DNA of 64,000 nucleotides, taken from the NCBI RefSeq assembly GCF_029607905.1, contig NZ_JAPHEH010000001.1, forward strand, positions 1,703,530 to 1,767,529, given 5' to 3'. Origin of the DNA: Thiovibrio frasassiensis. GTDB taxonomy: Bacteria > Desulfobacterota > Desulfobulbia > Desulfobulbales > Desulfurivibrionaceae. The position numbers and the translations under genes were made by a program. Shown here piece by piece: positions 20,072-55,285 of this stretch (its first letter is position 1; each line of letters opens with the position of its first letter). The notes below the pieces were generated by a model, which ran no database searches, was not told the origin of the DNA, and worked only from the letters and a program-made list of their open reading frames with translations.

Positions 20072-20785
20072 ATGCCGAGGCCCGTTGTCGGGGCCCTGTT
20101 TAAAGACGTTGCCCTCATACTGCTGCTCTGTGTTCCGTTCGGACTTGCCGGCTGCGGTGTGTCCGGGAGCAATAGCAACAAAGGTGTCAGGGATTTTTTT
20201 ACCCCGACCGATGTCAGCATTATTCGTCACCATGTGCAACTGTATCGCGGTTCCTTGCGTGACTTCACCGTCCGCCTGTATGCCAAGAACCCCAAGTATG
20301 AAAAGGATCCGTCCCGACAACGGCAGAAAATCGATTCCATCTTTGGCCAATTGCCCACCGGGGAGCAGGTCTACGCCTTCAAGCCCTCCCATGAGATACT
20401 CGCTGCGGCCTTTCAAGGGGAGGTGAGTGAGCCGGATCGGGTCTATCTCTTGAGTCTCGGCCTGTGGAAGGGGATCCAGGAGGCCTACCATGTTCGGGAT
20501 GAGGGGGTTTTTTTCAGCGGCCTGCAGATTTCTTTGGAGCGGCTGCAGCGGCTCCATCATAATGTCAGTCAGGTGAACTGGCGGTTGAAGACTTACAAGG
20601 ATAAGGACGGGAAGCTGCTGTTTGTCACCAACGAAGCCGGGGAAAACGGCTACATCAATATGGGCTACGAGGTTATCATGACCCAGATCCTCACCCGCAT
20701 TGAAGATGATATCATCATGCGGGGAGGGCTGCCCGAGAAGTACATCTTCAGTGTTTCCACCATGTTTCTCGGCATTGTTATCTAA
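20072..20785 (+). CDS. Lipoprotein of unknown function
   Basis: A 237-residue protein. The N-terminus has a hydrophobic stretch (VALILLLCVPFG) ending in a lipobox LAGC, so it should be lipidated. The mature part is mostly helical and polar, with no motif I recognise; segments such as VYLLSLGLWKGIQEAYH and GYEVIMTQILTRIEDDI suggest a globular helical domain. I chose the ATG at 20072, preceded by GAGGTG. It is alone between the purC repeats and the convergent DnaJ-like gene, with a shared terminator at 20784. Confidence 0.7.
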   Translation: MPRPVVGALFKDVALILLLCVPFGLAGCGVSGSNSNKGVRDFFTPTDVSIIRHHVQLYRGSLRDFTVRLYAKNPKYEKDPSRQRQKIDSIFGQLPTGEQVYAFKPSHEILAAAFQGEVSEPDRVYLLSLGLWKGIQEAYHVRDEGVFFSGLQISLERLQRLHHNVSQVNWRLKTYKDKDGKLLFVTNEAGENGYINMGYEVIMTQILTRIEDDIIMRGGLPEKYIFSVSTMFLGIVI

Positions 20786-20809
20786 TCCGGCACTTCTAAA
20801 GACCGGATT
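20784..20809. terminator. Hairpin between convergent lipoprotein and dnaJ-like genes
   Basis: AATCCGG (20784-20790) pairs with CCGGATT (20803-20809), followed by CTTTC. It overlaps the last codons of the minus-strand gene and probably ends transcription from one or both sides. Confidence 0.5.
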
Positions 20810-21737
20810 CTTTCAGGCTGTTCACCAACTCCCGCTGTTCCTCCGACAAGGTCTTCGGCACCGCCACCACGATTTTTACCAGCAGGTCACCGCGTGCTCC
20901 TCCCGGGCTTTCTGGCAGCCCCTGTTTGCGCAGGCGAAGTTTTGCCTGGGGCTGACAGCCGGGCGGAACCTTGACCTTGAGTTGTTTGCCGTCCAGGGTG
21001 GGGACTTCCACCTCCGCGCCAAACACGGCGGAGCTGTAAGGTATTTGCAGGTCCATGCTGAGGTCGGCCCCTTCCCGGGTAAAGGTCGGGTGCGGTTCGA
21101 CCCTGATCAGCAGATAGAGGTCGCCCGGCGGCCCACCCATGGGGGAGGGGGAGCCCTTGCCGGAAACCCGCAGTTTCTTGCCGGTTTCGATTCCGGCCGG
21201 AATTCTTACGGAAACCTTTTCCGCTGCAGCGCCGCGGCCAAGGGAGATGGTTTTTTCCGTCCCGGTCAGCACATCAAGCAGGGTGATCGGCAGTTCCAGG
21301 GAAAGATCATTGCCCTTCACCGGCTGCTGCTGGCGGAAATCCTGAAAGCCCTGGCTGCTCCGGCCGGTTGCTCCTGGCTGATGGAACATCTCATCGAATA
21401 TGCTGCCCCCCGAGCCGCCGCTTCGGAAGGTGGTGCGTCCGCCGCCGAAGTTGATCCCGAATTCCCGCAGGATATCGCCCAGGTCGGCGTTGCGGAAAAT
21501 ATCTTCCTGTGAATAGCGCTGCTGGAAGCCTGCGGAGCCGAAGGAATCGTATTGCTGCCGCTTTTCCTTGTCGGAGAGAACGGCGTACGCCTCGCTGATC
21601 TTTTTAAACTGCTCCTCCGCCTCCTTGTTGTCCTTATTGCGGTCCGGGTGGTACTTGAGGGCAAGTTTGCGGTAGGCTTTCTTGATTTCCTCCGGGGTAG
21701 CGCTTTTTTCCACACCGAGTAATTTATAGTAATCCAT
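20796..21737 (-). CDS. DnaJ-family co-chaperone without zinc finger (CbpA-like)
   Basis: A 313-residue protein. The J domain (residues 1-70) has [22 protein letters not shown] and the HPD motif in KYHPDRN that stimulates DnaK ATPase. A Gly/Phe/Gln-rich linker follows (about 80-135), then two C-terminal substrate-binding beta domains (about 140-300: [44 protein letters not shown]). There is no CXXCXGXG zinc-finger domain, which separates it from DnaJ proper. I chose the ATG at 21737 with AGGCAGGT upstream; a start at 21764 is possible. ssb lies upstream on the same strand, separated by a hairpin. Confidence 0.9.
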
Positions 21738-25997: not shown

Positions 25998-27134
25998 ATG
26001 CAGGAAAGACAAGCATTAGGAGGCAAGGTACTGACCGTGCCTTTCAAGGTATGCGCAGCCATCGTGCTCATTGGCCTTTTTTTTCTCGGTAAACGGTTTA
26101 TTTTTGGCATCGGTTCGGTCACCAACATGAACGACGGCTATCCTTGGGGGATCTGGATCGCCTATGATGTGGTGGTGGGTACGGCCCTGGCCTGCGCCGG
26201 GTATTCCATCGCCCTGATCGTCTATGTGTTTAACAAAGGTGAATATTCGCCCCTGGTGCGACCCGCCTTGATGACCAGCATGTTCGGCTACACCCTGGCC
26301 GGAATCTCGGTTATTTTCGACATCGGTCGCTACTGGCAGGCCTACAATATCTTTCTGCCGTGGCTCAGTAACTTGCATTCGGTGATGTTTGAGGTTGCTC
26401 TCTGTATCGGCACCTATATTCTGGTATTGTGGATGGAATTTGCCCCGACCCTGCTGGAAAAATTCAAAGCAGCCAGATTGCAGGCCAGGCTCAACCGGAT
26501 CATCTTCGTCTTCATCGCCCTGGGCATCCTTCTGCCCACCATGCATCAGTCCTCCCTGGGCACCATGATGCTCATGGCCGGGCACAAGCTTTCCCCCCTC
26601 TGGTGGAGCGGCTTTCTCCCGCTGCTCTTTCTCATTACCGCCGTGGTCATCGGCTATGCCGCGGTGATCTTTGAGTCGCTTATTGCCTCGGTTGCCTTCA
26701 AGCGGCCGCTTGAGCTGCATCTGCTCAGTAAGATTTCAGCGCTCATGCCCTGGCTGCTTGGTCTGTATCTGGTAATTCGGATCGAGGATGTGAATCTGCG
26801 CGGCTATCTGCCCCTTGCCTTTGAAGGCGGGCTTTTGGGCAATCTCTTCCTGCTGGAAAATCTGTTGCTGCTTGCCGCCCTGCTGATCCTGGCCTATCCC
26901 AACAACCGACAGAATCCGCGCCTTTTGTTCATCGCTTCCTGCGCCATGTTGCTGGGCGGGAGCATGTACCGTTTCAATACCTACATTGTCGGGTTTGATC
27001 CCGGCACCGGCTGGCGGTATTTTCCCTCGGTGCCGGAACTGTTCATCACCTTCGGCATTATTGCCGCGGAAGTGATGGCCTACCTGTGGTTTGTCAAGAC
27101 CTTGCCGGTATTGCCCAAATTCACTAAGGCATAA
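25998..27134 (+). CDS. hybB: Hydrogenase-2 membrane subunit HybB (NrfD/PsrC family)
   Basis: A 378-residue integral membrane protein with about nine or ten hydrophobic segments. It contains the conserved MNDGYPWGIWIAYDV and FDIGRYWQAYNIF blocks of the HybB quinone-reacting family. It would pass electrons from HybA to quinone, or draw them from quinol for hydrogen production. It has no haem-binding CXXCH. The ATG at 25998 follows GAAAGGAG. The unusually long 203-base gap to hybC contains a structured repeat. Confidence 0.94.
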   Translation: MQERQALGGKVLTVPFKVCAAIVLIGLFFLGKRFIFGIGSVTNMNDGYPWGIWIAYDVVVGTALACAGYSIALIVYVFNKGEYSPLVRPALMTSMFGYTLAGISVIFDIGRYWQAYNIFLPWLSNLHSVMFEVALCIGTYILVLWMEFAPTLLEKFKAARLQARLNRIIFVFIALGILLPTMHQSSLGTMMLMAGHKLSPLWWSGFLPLLFLITAVVIGYAAVIFESLIASVAFKRPLELHLLSKISALMPWLLGLYLVIRIEDVNLRGYLPLAFEGGLLGNLFLLENLLLLAALLILAYPNNRQNPRLLFIASCAMLLGGSMYRFNTYIVGFDPGTGWRYFPSVPELFITFGIIAAEVMAYLWFVKTLPVLPKFTKA

Positions 27135-27196
27135 ATTCGAAGGTAACTATTCAGCTCAGGGCTGGAAAGGTTCATAAAACACGAAACGTAATTGTT

Positions 27197-27325
27197 CAGC
27201 AGTGCCGCAGATGCACGGAAGAGGTCTGCGAAGTGTGCTGTTGCACACAAGCAGGCCGATGACAGCTAAGCGAGCGCAGCGAGACTGCGAAGCAAGATGC
27301 GGTGCTGCTGGGCAGTTACACCTGA
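27197..27325 (+). repeat. Intergenic repeat/structured element between hybB and hybC
   Basis: CAGCAGTGCCGCA (27197-27209) can pair fully with TGCGGTGCTGCTG (27298-27310) if two G-U pairs are allowed. An inner perfect hairpin GTGTGC-TGTT-GCACAC is at 27233-27248. The element resembles the region 55145-55285 upstream of metF: both share AGAGGTCTG.GA and, further on, GATG..AGC, AGCGCAGCGAG, AAGCAA and GCGGTGC in the same order. I infer a repeat family of about 130 bases. It may be an ERIC-like mobile repeat or an RNA element that adjusts hybC expression. Confidence 0.5.
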
Positions 27326-27337
27326 AGGAGAGAGTGC

Positions 27338-29041
27338 ATGGCTAAGAGAATCGTCGTTGATCCCATCACCAGAATCGAAGGGCATCTCCGGATTGATTGC
27401 GAGATTGACAACGGGAGGGTGACCAAGGCTTGGTCTTCCGGTCAGATGTGGCGCGGAATCGAGTTGATCCTCCAAGGCCGCGACCCGCGGGAGGCCTGGC
27501 TCTTCACCCAGCGGATCTGCGGGGTCTGCACCACTGTCCATGCCATTGCTTCGGTAAGGGCCGTGGAGAATGCCCTGAGCCTAGAGGTGCCCCTCAACGC
27601 CCAATACATCAGGAATATGATCATTGGCGCCCATGGGATATTTGATCATATTGTTCATTTTTATCATCTTTCCGCCCTGGACTGGGTGGACATCGTTTCC
27701 TCCCTTAAGGGCAGCCCCAAGGGGGCCGCAGCCCTTGGCCAGCAGCTTTCCCCCTGGCCCCGCAACAGCGAGCAGGAAATCCGGGCGGTGCAGGAAAAAC
27801 TGAAAAGTTTTGTTGGTACCGGTCAGCTTGGCATCTTTGCCAGCGGCTACTGGGGACACCCGGCCATGAAACTCTCTCCGGACGTTAATCTGCTTGCCGC
27901 CACCCATTATTTCCAGGCCTTGGAATATCAGCGGAAGATCAACAAGGTGGTGGCCATTCTCGGCAGCAAGACCCCGCATATCCAGAATCTGGCCGTGGGC
28001 GGAGTTGCCAATCCCATCAACCCCGACAGCCAGTCCACCCTGACCATCGAGCGGCTTTTCTATATTAAAACCCTGATCGATGAAATCGGAGATTTTATTA
28101 AGAATGTCTATATGGTTGATGTCGCGGCCATCGGCGCTTTTTATGCGGAGTGGACCCAATACGGAGCCGGGGTGACCAATTATCTCTCGGTGCCGGATAT
28201 GCCCCTGGACACCAAGGGGACAGCGTTTGATCTCCCTGGTGGGTACATCGGGGATGGCAAGGTGGGCTCGTTTAAGCCGATCACCGGCTTCAACGATGAT
28301 TTCTTCAAGCAGGGGGTCAAGGAGGGGATCAAGCATTCCTGGTACAAGGGAGACTGGGACCGGCATCCCTGGGAGGAAGATACCGTGCCCCAGCACACCG
28401 ATTTCCAGGACAACGGCAAGTATTCCTGGGTCAAGTCCCCGACCTTCAACGGCAAGCCGGCCCAGGTCGGACCATTGGCCAACGTATTGTGCATGTATGC
28501 CGCAGGGCACGCCCCGACCAAAACGTATACCGACATTCTCTTGGCAACAGTGAGCAAGCTGGCCGGAGCCAAGGTCGGGATCGCTGCCCTCCATTCCACC
28601 ATCGGCCGTCATGCGGCCCGGGCGGTCCGGTGCGCGGTGTTGCACGACTCCCTGCTTGGCCAGTGGCAATCCTTGATGGACAACATCGGCAGGGGGGATT
28701 ATGCAACCTTCAATGCCCCGGTCTTTCCGAAAGGAGAGCAGCGCGGGGTTGGTTTTCATGAGGCGCCGCGCGGGGTGTTGTCCCACTGGGTTGTGATCCA
28801 GGACGGCAAGATCAAGAATTATCAGTGCGTGGTCCCGTCCACCTGGAATGCCGGGCCCAGAAACAATAAAGACGAACCTGGCCCATACGAGGCCTCATTG
28901 TTGGGCAATCCGGTGGCGGATCCGGAAAAGCCTCTTGAGGTTTTGCGGACGGTCCATTCCTTTGACCCCTGCCTTGCCTGCGCCATCCATCTTCTGGATC
29001 CCGAGAGTCGGGAAATCGTCACCGTCAGGACCATGGTATAA
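27338..29041 (+). CDS. hybC: [NiFe] hydrogenase large subunit
   Basis: A 567-residue catalytic subunit that oxidises or produces H2. The N-terminal Ni-ligand motif is RICGVC (Cys61, Cys64). The C-terminal motif is DPCLACAIH (Cys545, Cys548, His551). A 16-residue tail after His551 (LLDPESREIVTVRTMV) should be removed by the protease HybD after nickel insertion. The enzyme lacks its own signal and is co-exported with HybO. Together with HybO, HybA and HybB it fits the group 1c (Hyd-2) type. The ATG at 27338 is preceded by GAAGGAGAG. A terminator follows directly. Confidence 0.97.
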   Translation: MAKRIVVDPITRIEGHLRIDCEIDNGRVTKAWSSGQMWRGIELILQGRDPREAWLFTQRICGVCTTVHAIASVRAVENALSLEVPLNAQYIRNMIIGAHGIFDHIVHFYHLSALDWVDIVSSLKGSPKGAAALGQQLSPWPRNSEQEIRAVQEKLKSFVGTGQLGIFASGYWGHPAMKLSPDVNLLAATHYFQALEYQRKINKVVAILGSKTPHIQNLAVGGVANPINPDSQSTLTIERLFYIKTLIDEIGDFIKNVYMVDVAAIGAFYAEWTQYGAGVTNYLSVPDMPLDTKGTAFDLPGGYIGDGKVGSFKPITGFNDDFFKQGVKEGIKHSWYKGDWDRHPWEEDTVPQHTDFQDNGKYSWVKSPTFNGKPAQVGPLANVLCMYAAGHAPTKTYTDILLATVSKLAGAKVGIAALHSTIGRHAARAVRCAVLHDSLLGQWQSLMDNIGRGDYATFNAPVFPKGEQRGVGFHEAPRGVLSHWVVIQDGKIKNYQCVVPSTWNAGPRNNKDEPGPYEASLLGNPVADPEKPLEVLRTVHSFDPCLACAIHLLDPESREIVTVRTMV

Positions 29042-33066: not shown

Positions 33067-33819
33067 ATGTGTGATTCCTGCGGCTGCAGTCAGCCGGGAA
33101 ACAGCGTAACCATCACCAGGCCAGGACAGGCCATGCCTGTCCCCGGCTCGGGAGAGTCCGTTCATTCGCACCAGGGCCGGGTTTTGGAGGTGCAGGAGGC
33201 GGTGCTCGGGAAAAACGATGGGATTGCCGTCCATAACCGGGATTTCTTCCAGAAAAGAGGGGTCCTTGCGCTTAATCTGGTCAGTTCTCCCGGCTCCGGC
33301 AAAACAACGATCCTGGAACGGACCATCCGGGAGCTGCCCCAGGGGATCCCCCTCGCAGTAATCGAAGGGGACCAGCAGACCATGCTCGACGCCGAACGGA
33401 TTGCCGCCACCGGGGTGCCCGTGGTTCAGGTGAATACCGGGGCCGGATGCCATCTTGATGCGGAGATGGTGCACCGGGCCCTGCACCAGATGGAGGTGGC
33501 AGCAAACTCTCTGCTCTTTATCGAAAATGTCGGCAATCTGGTCTGTCCGGCCATGTTTGATCTGGGCGAGGCGGCCAAGGTTGTGATCATCAGCGTCACC
33601 GAGGGAGAGGATAAGCCGCTCAAGTATCCGGCCATGTTCGATGCCGCCACGCTGTGTTTGATCAACAAGATCGACCTTCTTCCCTATGTTGATTTTGATC
33701 TGGCCCGTTGCCGGGAATATGGATTGCGGGTGAATCCCCGGCTGGAATTTTTTGAAATCTCAGCCAGGACCGGTGCGGGCATGCCAGCCTGGCTGGCCTG
33801 GCTGCGTCGGCAACTCTGA
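33067..33819 (+). CDS. hypB: Hydrogenase nickel-incorporation GTPase HypB
   Basis: A 250-residue GTPase. The N-terminal MCDSCGC is the high-affinity nickel motif of HypB. The P-loop is SSPGSGKTT, and [22 protein letters not shown] and NKIDLLPY are the other nucleotide- and metal-site blocks, including the Cys-His pair of the second metal site. The linker after the N-terminus has only two His, with no His-rich nickel-storage stretch. AGAGGTG precedes the ATG. hypF follows by 22 bases. Confidence 0.96.
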
Positions 33820-53126: not shown

Positions 53127-55052
53127 TTATTCCTGTGGTCCGTCTGCCCGTTTCAGCCCTGAAGCATTCTTGAGCTTGGCCCCTGTGAGATTGGCGTTAC
53201 TCAGGTCGGCCTTGTAGAAATCAGCCTCTTCCAGATTGGCATTTTCCAGATTGGCCCCGCTCAGATTTGCGCCCTTGAGGTTTGCCCCTTCGAGATTGGC
53301 GCCACGCAGGTTCGCGCCGGAAAGATTGGTTCGCTCCAGGTGTGCTCCTTGCAGTTTTTTGCCGGAAAGATCCTGGCCGCTCAGGTCGCATTCCACGCAG
53401 CGGTTTGCTTGCAGGAGTTTTTCCAGGTCGGTAAGCTTCGGGGGCTCAGGCGGTTTCACCTCTTCCGGCGGTTTGACCGGAGCCGGAGAGGGTACAGAGG
53501 GTGGGGGAGCTATGGCTGCCGTGGTAACACTTGCGGCGGCCGGCATAATCTTTTCCGCTGGAGCTGTTTTGGCAGGCGAAGGTGCCGCGGACTGGGCGGC
53601 TGGCGCCGGGGGGATGGGAAGAGCTTCTGCCGATTTCGCCATCTCCGGGGTGATGATCGGCGCCGGGGCGGGCGGTGTTGCAGCGAGAGACTCTCCGGTT
53701 TCGGTTTTCGGAGCCGGAAGACTCTGCGCGGTCGTTGTCTCCGTGGTCGGCGGGTAGCTGGGAGCCCAAAGGTTTCCCATCCCCGCCTGCTCTTGTTCCA
53801 GGGGATCTGTTTTTTTCGATGGGGTGGGGGTTTTGTCCCGGTACTCGGTGAGGAAGGCATCGATATCCTCTTTGTTGCCTTTCTGGCGCTCTTGCTCGAG
53901 GATTGTTCCGATCAGGTATGCGCCTTCGAGGTCCGCCCCGGTCAGGATTGTCCCGCTGAGATTGGCCCTGTAAAGATCGGCTCCGGCCAGATTGGCTCCG
54001 CTGAGATTGGCCTGGCTGAGATTGGCCTCGGCAAGGTCTGCCGTTTTGAGGCTGGCGCCTTGAAGATTGGCGCCACTGAGGTTGGCCCCGCTCAGGTTTG
54101 CTCGATTCAGGTTGATCCCGACAAGGTCGGCCCCGGCGAGGTTGCAGCCGGGGCAACCGTTTTGGGCGATTAATCGATCCACTTCCGAGCTGGCTCCCGA
54201 CGGCAGGGGTGCAGGTGCCGGCTTCGGTGCAGGCCGTAAAGGAGCGGGTTGCATCCCGGCGGAAGCGATGGGTTCCGGTGCTTGGCTAACAGCGCGCGGC
54301 TCGGGCAAGGCAGCTGGCGGAAGAGTTGTTGGCTTCGCCTGGGGAGTTTGTGCCGGCGGTGGGGTGGGCAACGATTCAGGGGCGGCCATGGGGGCTGGCG
54401 CTGATGGAGGCGGCGTTGGGATCGCAACAACCGGCGCGGCAACAACCGGGGCGACAACCGGAGCAGGCAGCGGGACAGGTGTCTGTGCCGCTGCCTGCTC
54501 CGGTTGGGTTATGGCTGCCTTAGGTTCGATTTTCTCTTCAAGAACAGGCGGGACGGCAACCGGCGGCGGCAAGGGTTTTTCCGGTACGGTCAGTGCGTTT
54601 TCCGGAGGGGTGTAAGTGGTGCTGCCCTCGAGGATTGCCCGCTCATAGTTGCTGCTGGTAAAGGAGGCGTTTTTGGTCTTGGCTCCCTTGAGAAAGGCTC
54701 CGGTAAGATCCGCCTTGTAAAAATCAGCCTCCTCCAGATTGGCGTCGGTCAGGTTCGCTCCGGAAAGATCAACCCCCTTGAGGTTTGCCCCTTCCAGGTC
54801 TGCCCCTTCCAGATTTGCCCTGGAGAGATTGCTCCGTTCCAGATAGGCCTGGCCAAGCTTTGTCCGGCGCAGGTCAGCACCGGCGAGATCGCATTCCACG
54901 CAGCGGTTGGTCGCCTTCAGGGTTTCCAGGTCTTTTTGGGTGTAGGCCGCCGCCTGGCGGGGTGAGGCAGCCAAGCACAGAGAGCAGAACAGCAGGGCCG
55001 CCGCAGGTGTTTTTCTTTTTGAATATGCCAACGTTTCGTGGTCCCCGGCCAT
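53127..55052 (-). CDS. Secreted pentapeptide-repeat protein with three repeat blocks and Pro/Ala-rich linkers
   Basis: A 641-residue protein. A signal peptide is seen (KRKTPAAALLFCSLCLAASPRQAAA). Three blocks of A(D/N)LxG pentapeptide repeats lie near residues 50-125, 300-390 and 550-640. Between them are long Pro/Ala/Thr-rich linkers. Each block is preceded by a CXXC motif: NRCVECDLAG, NGCPGCNLAG and NRCVECDLSG. These repeats fold as right-handed beta-helices; the role here is unknown. I chose the ATG at 55052 (AGGAAG adjacent); a TTG at 55091 is less likely. The DNA itself looks repetitive because of the coding repeats. Confidence 0.8.
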   Translation of the reverse strand: MAGDHETLAYSKRKTPAAALLFCSLCLAASPRQAAAYTQKDLETLKATNRCVECDLAGADLRRTKLGQAYLERSNLSRANLEGADLEGANLKGVDLSGANLTDANLEEADFYKADLTGAFLKGAKTKNASFTSSNYERAILEGSTTYTPPENALTVPEKPLPPPVAVPPVLEEKIEPKAAITQPEQAAAQTPVPLPAPVVAPVVAAPVVAIPTPPPSAPAPMAAPESLPTPPPAQTPQAKPTTLPPAALPEPRAVSQAPEPIASAGMQPAPLRPAPKPAPAPLPSGASSEVDRLIAQNGCPGCNLAGADLVGINLNRANLSGANLSGANLQGASLKTADLAEANLSQANLSGANLAGADLYRANLSGTILTGADLEGAYLIGTILEQERQKGNKEDIDAFLTEYRDKTPTPSKKTDPLEQEQAGMGNLWAPSYPPTTETTTAQSLPAPKTETGESLAATPPAPAPIITPEMAKSAEALPIPPAPAAQSAAPSPAKTAPAEKIMPAAASVTTAAIAPPPSVPSPAPVKPPEEVKPPEPPKLTDLEKLLQANRCVECDLSGQDLSGKKLQGAHLERTNLSGANLRGANLEGANLKGANLSGANLENANLEEADFYKADLSNANLTGAKLKNASGLKRADGPQE

Positions 55053-55144
55053 CTTCCTGATGGCGCAATGTTTCCATTCTTTGCCGGACAATAGGGCACA
55101 GTCTGGAACCGTGAGCTACGCTTTGCCCCAAACCCGTATGCGAG

Positions 55145-55285
55145 AGCAGGGGCTCGTAGGTGCGCGCGAGAGGTCTGTGATGACGTCGTTTCGCGGTTAT
55201 CCCCGATTGTGTGAGCGGGTCGATGGTAGCGCAGCGAGCGTCGCAAGAGTGCAAGCAAAAGCGGTGCACTGTACTTACTTCACCA
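55145..55285 (+). repeat. Second copy of the about 130-base intergenic repeat
   Basis: It resembles 27197-27325 in the hybB-hybC gap: AGAGGTCTG.GA, then GATG..AGC, AGCGCAGCGAG, AAGCAA and GCGGTGC occur in the same order, and both end in a TTAC..CACC.GAA pattern. It is somewhat longer, and the outer stem is not conserved. Confidence 0.45.

Follow-up and report, generated by a model that had tools for sequence, protein, structure and literature searches.

The gap between hybB and hybC in the 64,000-nt stretch of Thiovibrio frasassiensis DNA analysed here (the window) is occupied by a 177-bp mobile unit at positions 27143-27319. With a probability of about 0.8, we consider that the unit belongs to a family of non-autonomous DNA transposons (MITEs) of the Desulfobulbales which carry a strand-specific folded hairpin as cargo.

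Structure of the copy in the hybB-hybC gap

As shown in Table 1, the unit consists of a 45-bp left end (X) followed by a hairpin (27188-27319), the 22-bp arms of which enclose a conserved purine-rich core. X starts with GTAACTATTCAGC and is an imperfect inverted repeat of the right arm R. From the 5′ end, the hairpin contains arm L2 (22 nt), a 2×2 GA/GA loop, stem P2, an AAGA/GATGA loop, P3, a GAA/GA loop, P4 with a four-base loop, and the 3′ arm R. This copy also bears the optional module m3. It folds far better than shuffled sequences (z = −7.1). The first-pass annotation, made from the sequence of the window alone, had placed a structured repeat at 27197-27325 with ends paired over 13 bases. 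The structured repeat and the pairing of its arms are real, but the element is longer than described: 22 bases are paired in each arm, and the unit begins upstream of the hairpin. The target-site duplication of this copy is degenerate, with 5 of 8 positions matching. Neither an intrinsic terminator nor a promoter was found in the copy by consensus scan (sigma-70-like for the promoter).

Table 1. Features of the mobile unit, its host genes and the related relic in the window.
Feature	Position	Strand	Remark
hybB, hydrogenase cytochrome b subunit; upstream host gene	25998..27134	+	
Left target-site duplication, degenerate (ATTCGAAG; ATTTGAAG in relative L225)	27135..27142		Empty sites of relatives are CCCTGAAG or TTCTGAAG
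Left end X of the mobile unit (GTAACTATTCAGCTCAGGGCTGG...CACGAAAC)	27143..27187	+	
Arm L2 of the hairpin, forming the 5′ side of stem P1 (22 base pairs with R)	27188..27209	+	
Conserved core: GA/GA loop, P2, AAGA loop, P3, GAA loop, P4 hairpin, GATGAC	27210..27263	+	
Optional module m3 (GCTAAGCGAGCGCAGCGAGACTGCG...) and 3′ side of P2	27264..27297	+	Orthologous copies L220 and L225 are without m3
Right arm R, forming the 3′ side of P1 and the terminal inverted repeat at the right end (...GGGCAGTTAC)	27298..27319	+	
Right target-site duplication (ACCTGAAG)	27320..27327		Directly 5′ of or overlapping the hybC Shine-Dalgarno sequence (GAAGGAG)
hybC-like hydrogenase large subunit; downstream host gene	27338..29041	+	
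Decayed long-form relic upstream of metF	55145..55278	+	Arms and hairpins now unpaired

Copies and distribution of the element

With the hyb copy as query, a DNA search of the organism's own genome (G000, 2.84 Mb) detected some 30 strong places. Covariance model R1, built from 13 copies of this genome, placed the hyb copy at 27186-27321 with a score of 102 bits and gave about 30 genomic hits as well as some weaker ones. Many further copies, for which the first-pass annotation had proposed a genome-wide search, are thus present. The repeat was detected by BLAST in all 16 same-genus relatives. Model R2, built from 67 copies, gave matches at E ≤ 1e-6 in 89 of the 116 genomes of the order, representing 43 of 49 genera, and in 18 of 247 genomes drawn from the phylum. 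Some R2-positive genomes outside the order contained 9-15 copies among the matches listed. With R1, the matches listed for single genomes numbered 147, 138, 76 and 70; these copy numbers are approximate, since palindromic copies can match on both strands and 150 candidates were scored. Across the Desulfobulbales, the copy number of the hairpin in a genome ranges from tens to a hundred or more.

Named records containing the exact core were MAGs labelled Desulfobulbaceae, Desulfobacterales, Desulfurivibrio sp., and unclassified Deltaproteobacteria or Proteobacteria. No match was detected in the plasmids, phages and viral contigs searched. Rfam 15 returned no family at gathering or relaxed thresholds, the best models being microRNAs far below threshold, and no earlier description of the family was found in the open-access literature, to which the search was confined (subscription papers lay outside it). 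Contig C2 (35.9 kb), which may be a plasmid, carries one intact copy (L011, G000:C2:8865-8974). In the orthologous copy of G007 (L346), the hairpin has been lost except for GTAACTAGTTAC.

Evidence for transposition

The repeat is almost certainly a MITE. It is short, non-coding and multi-copy, it has terminal inverted repeats beginning with GTAA, and it is flanked by target-site duplications of a fixed length of 8 bp. Among 108 genus copies, the 8-mer left of X matched that right of R at 7 or more of 8 positions in 24 copies, against 0-7 in shuffled pairings; the same test taken at the hairpin start gave one match. Exact 8-bp duplications were found in 12 genus copies (shuffled mean 0.12), counted under a slightly looser boundary rule than GTAA...TAC. 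Outside GTAA...TAC itself, exact duplications (8/8) were present in 8 of 31 copies from other genomes and in none of 200 shuffles. These eight copies come from G024, G026, G027, G033 and G046, which are five families according to the kinship table. Sites that are empty in relatives were seen in the hyb gap, for L054 compared with L093/L108, and for L111 compared with the window. In the window, 33777-33817 and 20753-20829 are the element-free counterparts of the L111 and L060 sites of related genomes.

Genome G027 contains two size classes of the unit, one of 61-62 bp without the hairpin (L319, L320 and L335) and one of 157-159 bp with it (L321, L322, L325 and L328), and both have identical ends and duplication. 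Because the 61-62-bp units carry the same duplications, the hairpin is an optional cargo of the mobile unit. The unit moves as X...R, with GTAA-type ends and duplication of an 8-bp target. X...R exists in a form of 61-62 bp; the form found in the hyb gap has in addition a hairpin cargo of ∼97 bp (L2 arm and core), and the 3′ side of the stem that closes this cargo is provided by R, the right terminal repeat. The hairpin alone was rejected as the mobile unit, as the duplications sit at X and not at the hairpin start. Relationships to integron attC sites and to bridge-RNA (IS110) systems were dropped because of the 8-bp duplications.

IS66-type ends

The combination of GTAA ends and 8-bp duplication is of the IS66 type and is also shown by IS66 elements L195, L204 and L205. 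L205 and the genus repeat have GTAACTGTTCAG in common, and the IS66 of G019 and an element copy in G019 have GTAAGCGCTCAGCA in common, a 14-bp match of ends. Judging from the ends and the duplication size, an IS66-like transposase supplied in trans probably moves the element. The element is thus like the IS66 family in its GTAA ends, its 8-bp duplications and a 12-14 bp terminal repeat common with the IS66 of related genomes, but unlike it in carrying no transposase. IS66 transposase was absent from the 17 genomes of the own genus, in which no transposase with the same ends was therefore found in the same genome as the element, and also from several element-rich genomes. In the order, IS66 was present in 39 of 116 genomes whereas the element was present in 89. 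IS66 was for these reasons rejected as the resident mobiliser.

Modules of the hairpin

Three optional modules, m1 (CGCCGCTTCGCTGC), m2 (TGTCAATTGTCGGCAGAAGTGCCGACA) and m3 (GCTAAGCGAGC...GACTGCG), have fixed positions in the hairpin, and a copy may bear any number of them from none to three. Modules have been gained or lost precisely at fixed orthologous insertions (L063/L083, L056/L026, L092/L130, L093/L108 and, in the hyb gap, L214/L215/L220/L225), which suggests gene conversion between copies. L153 has the same flanks as L092 and L130 at the orthologous site, but between these flanks the complete element, X included, has been inverted in place.

Conservation of the fold

The main covariation set comprised 67 short-form copies, in which 95.8% of the cells were paired and 31 of the 39 pairs had changes on both sides. 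Cells changed on both sides numbered 313, against 64 ± 7 in shuffles, and the covariation score was 0.446, compared with 0.174 for shuffled alignments and at most 0.111 when the partner was slid. Compensatory base changes thus exceed the controls, and the structured RNA that the first-pass annotation had thought possible is strongly supported at the level of the family. The fold of the + strand, with its mismatched loops, is conserved across families, and its conservation does not depend on how the neighbouring genes are oriented.

Stem P1 of 48 copies contained 158 G-U and 8 A-C pairs, or 30 and 6 outside four mostly-GU positions; this set mixed copies chosen by the core pattern with own-genome copies chosen by BLAST, which leaves the bias open to ascertainment. 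Copies lying antisense in operons gave the same sign (16 G-U versus 3 A-C, and 32 versus 6 in another count). Differences in P1 between orthologous copies at the same site, whose arms were transcribed by hand and whose within-site comparisons are not independent, comprised 39 single changes that keep pairing via G-U and 21 compensated doubles; pairing was broken by 20 singles (A-C in 5 cases), and 3 doubles were unpaired. The orthologue comparison and the antisense G-U bias argue for selection on the + strand after insertion, and against a mere palindrome or a function in host mRNA. Selection seems to act on the folded + strand, most likely as RNA, and a strand-specific function of the fold is likely. 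The + strand would serve the element's own life in folded, single-stranded form rather than regulate the host operon in cis; it may bind a host or element protein, be processed, or steer transposition.

The sequence fits either RNA or single-stranded DNA, and we lean towards RNA. Folded single-stranded DNA, comparable to attC sites or IS200/IS605 ends, with the R end shown as a duplex to a recombinase, would account for the strand specificity of the fold and for the service of R as both terminal repeat and hairpin arm, and G-T is better tolerated than A-C in DNA too. We consider this reading unlikely, as the 8-bp duplications and the mobile hairpin-free form point to ordinary double-strand transposition, and as a tandem UG/GU pair, retained in 52 and 56 of the 67 copies, and GA-rich internal loops are typical of RNA. 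Still less probable is a neutral palindrome whose arms stay complementary through template-switch correction or gene conversion between copies, with no selection on the fold. Recombination between copies does seem to occur, given the exchange of modules at fixed sites and the copy inverted in place, but such a palindrome predicts no excess of G-U over A-C, which was observed, and predicts erosion of the mismatched loops, which are conserved across families.

For the MITE with a folded cargo, we tentatively suggest a wider reading, in which the family extends across the phylum and the cargo is an undescribed structured RNA. This + strand RNA would be transcribed, and either the spread of the element or the host would require it, in cis or in trans; many copies would for this reason be kept foldable after insertion.

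Neighbouring genes and the hybB-hybC gap in relatives

Neighbouring genes were called by a simple longest-ORF rule. Within same-strand gene pairs, 23 unique loci were antisense and 8 sense; between other pairs, 12 were convergent and 11 divergent. A terminator role in convergent gaps was rejected, since convergent and divergent neighbours were about equally frequent. In many cases the minus-strand gene has its stop codon within the right end of the element or directly beside it, and at 13 of 32 unique loci this stop is exactly the TAA within the element end GTAAC.

The hybB-hybC gap was compared in 13 same-genus genomes. Four gaps were empty and five were filled, one of the latter (L218) on a contig that begins inside or just before the hairpin, X not being seen. 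Three gaps retained X and had one common deletion of the hairpin, and one (L222) contained an independent insertion of another subtype on the opposite strand. Since the gap is empty, or the hairpin deleted, in relatives, the hairpin is dispensable at hyb. The copy there would be an insertion that is tolerated, the ribosome-binding site of hybC having been preserved. At another locus (L098 compared with L127/L163), two different subtypes occupy one ribosome-binding-site target (CTCCTT on this strand); this site and the hybB-hybC gap look like insertion hotspots.

The regulatory RNA suggested in the first-pass annotation for the hyb operon was not supported at this locus, where four of the 13 gaps are empty and three more have lost the hairpin, and copies elsewhere lie beside unrelated genes. 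A riboswitch-like or mRNA-stabilising cis leader of the hyb operon and other genes is very improbable: hyb and some other copies do lie a few bases 5′ of a ribosome-binding site and the fold is very stable, but no placement upstream of one common gene class in the same orientation was seen, most copies within operons are antisense, the + strand G-U bias persists in these, and 7 of the 13 gaps are empty or without hairpin.

The relic upstream of metF

The motifs reported in the first-pass annotation as common, in the same order, to 27197-27325 and 55145-55285 were borne out: the local alignment of the hyb and metF copies scored 36, compared with 14.6 ± 2.6 for 2000 dinucleotide shuffles, none of which reached 36, and, outside the hyb region itself, the hyb repeat scored best at position 55126 of the window. 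Chance similarity and a lack of further copies, either of which would have told against a repeat family, were thus not found. The second site, which had also been taken for a structured repeat, folds no better than shuffles (z = −0.6); it was missed by R1 and R2 in the normal scan and reached 9.4 bits in an exhaustive covariance scan. This z value and the low covariance score identify the metF copy as a decayed relic, the arms of which have lost their pairing. It is adjoined by a 654-aa open frame with several pentapeptide-repeat stretches (53127-55091, minus strand).

Comparison with known elements and significance

The closest systems in behaviour appear, by analogy, to be ERIC, Correia and BOX elements, MITEs with stable folded transcripts or a modular build. 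ERIC/IRU of enterobacteria, carried by E. coli among others, are intergenic hairpin-forming MITEs present in tens to hundreds of copies per genome (PMC10969869). The present element is like them in these respects but differs in its GTAA ends, 8-bp duplications and hosts. The earlier label "ERIC-like" is apt for a short, multi-copy, mobile intergenic palindrome; identity with ERIC is ruled out by sequence, as no match was found in a collection of 5,426 E. coli genomes. Correia elements (CREE/NEMIS) of Neisseria are MITEs with a stable folded transcript for which inversion has been reported (PMC10969869). Our element shares the folding, known here from sequence, and the inversion, in one case; its fold covaries on one strand across the order and its hairpin is optional, unlike Correia, from which it is set apart by description and by the lack of an Rfam match. 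BOX elements of pneumococcus are modular repeats whose modules vary at fixed loci (PMC3049150). Our element shows such variation too, but, compared by description, it has three different hairpin modules at fixed places in one conserved fold.

Most bacterial MITEs are regarded as palindromic-looking relics. In this element, two-sided changes on one strand appear to keep the fold intact in copies fixed at orthologous sites, and they do so over no fewer than 43 genera of the order and, elsewhere in the phylum, over scattered families. Should the folded strand be RNA, transposons would be carrying a large RNA family that has not been described; should it be single-stranded DNA, this would be a new use of a hairpin in transposition. 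Model R2 is a ready covariance model for annotating many intergenic regions in sulfur-cycling bacteria.
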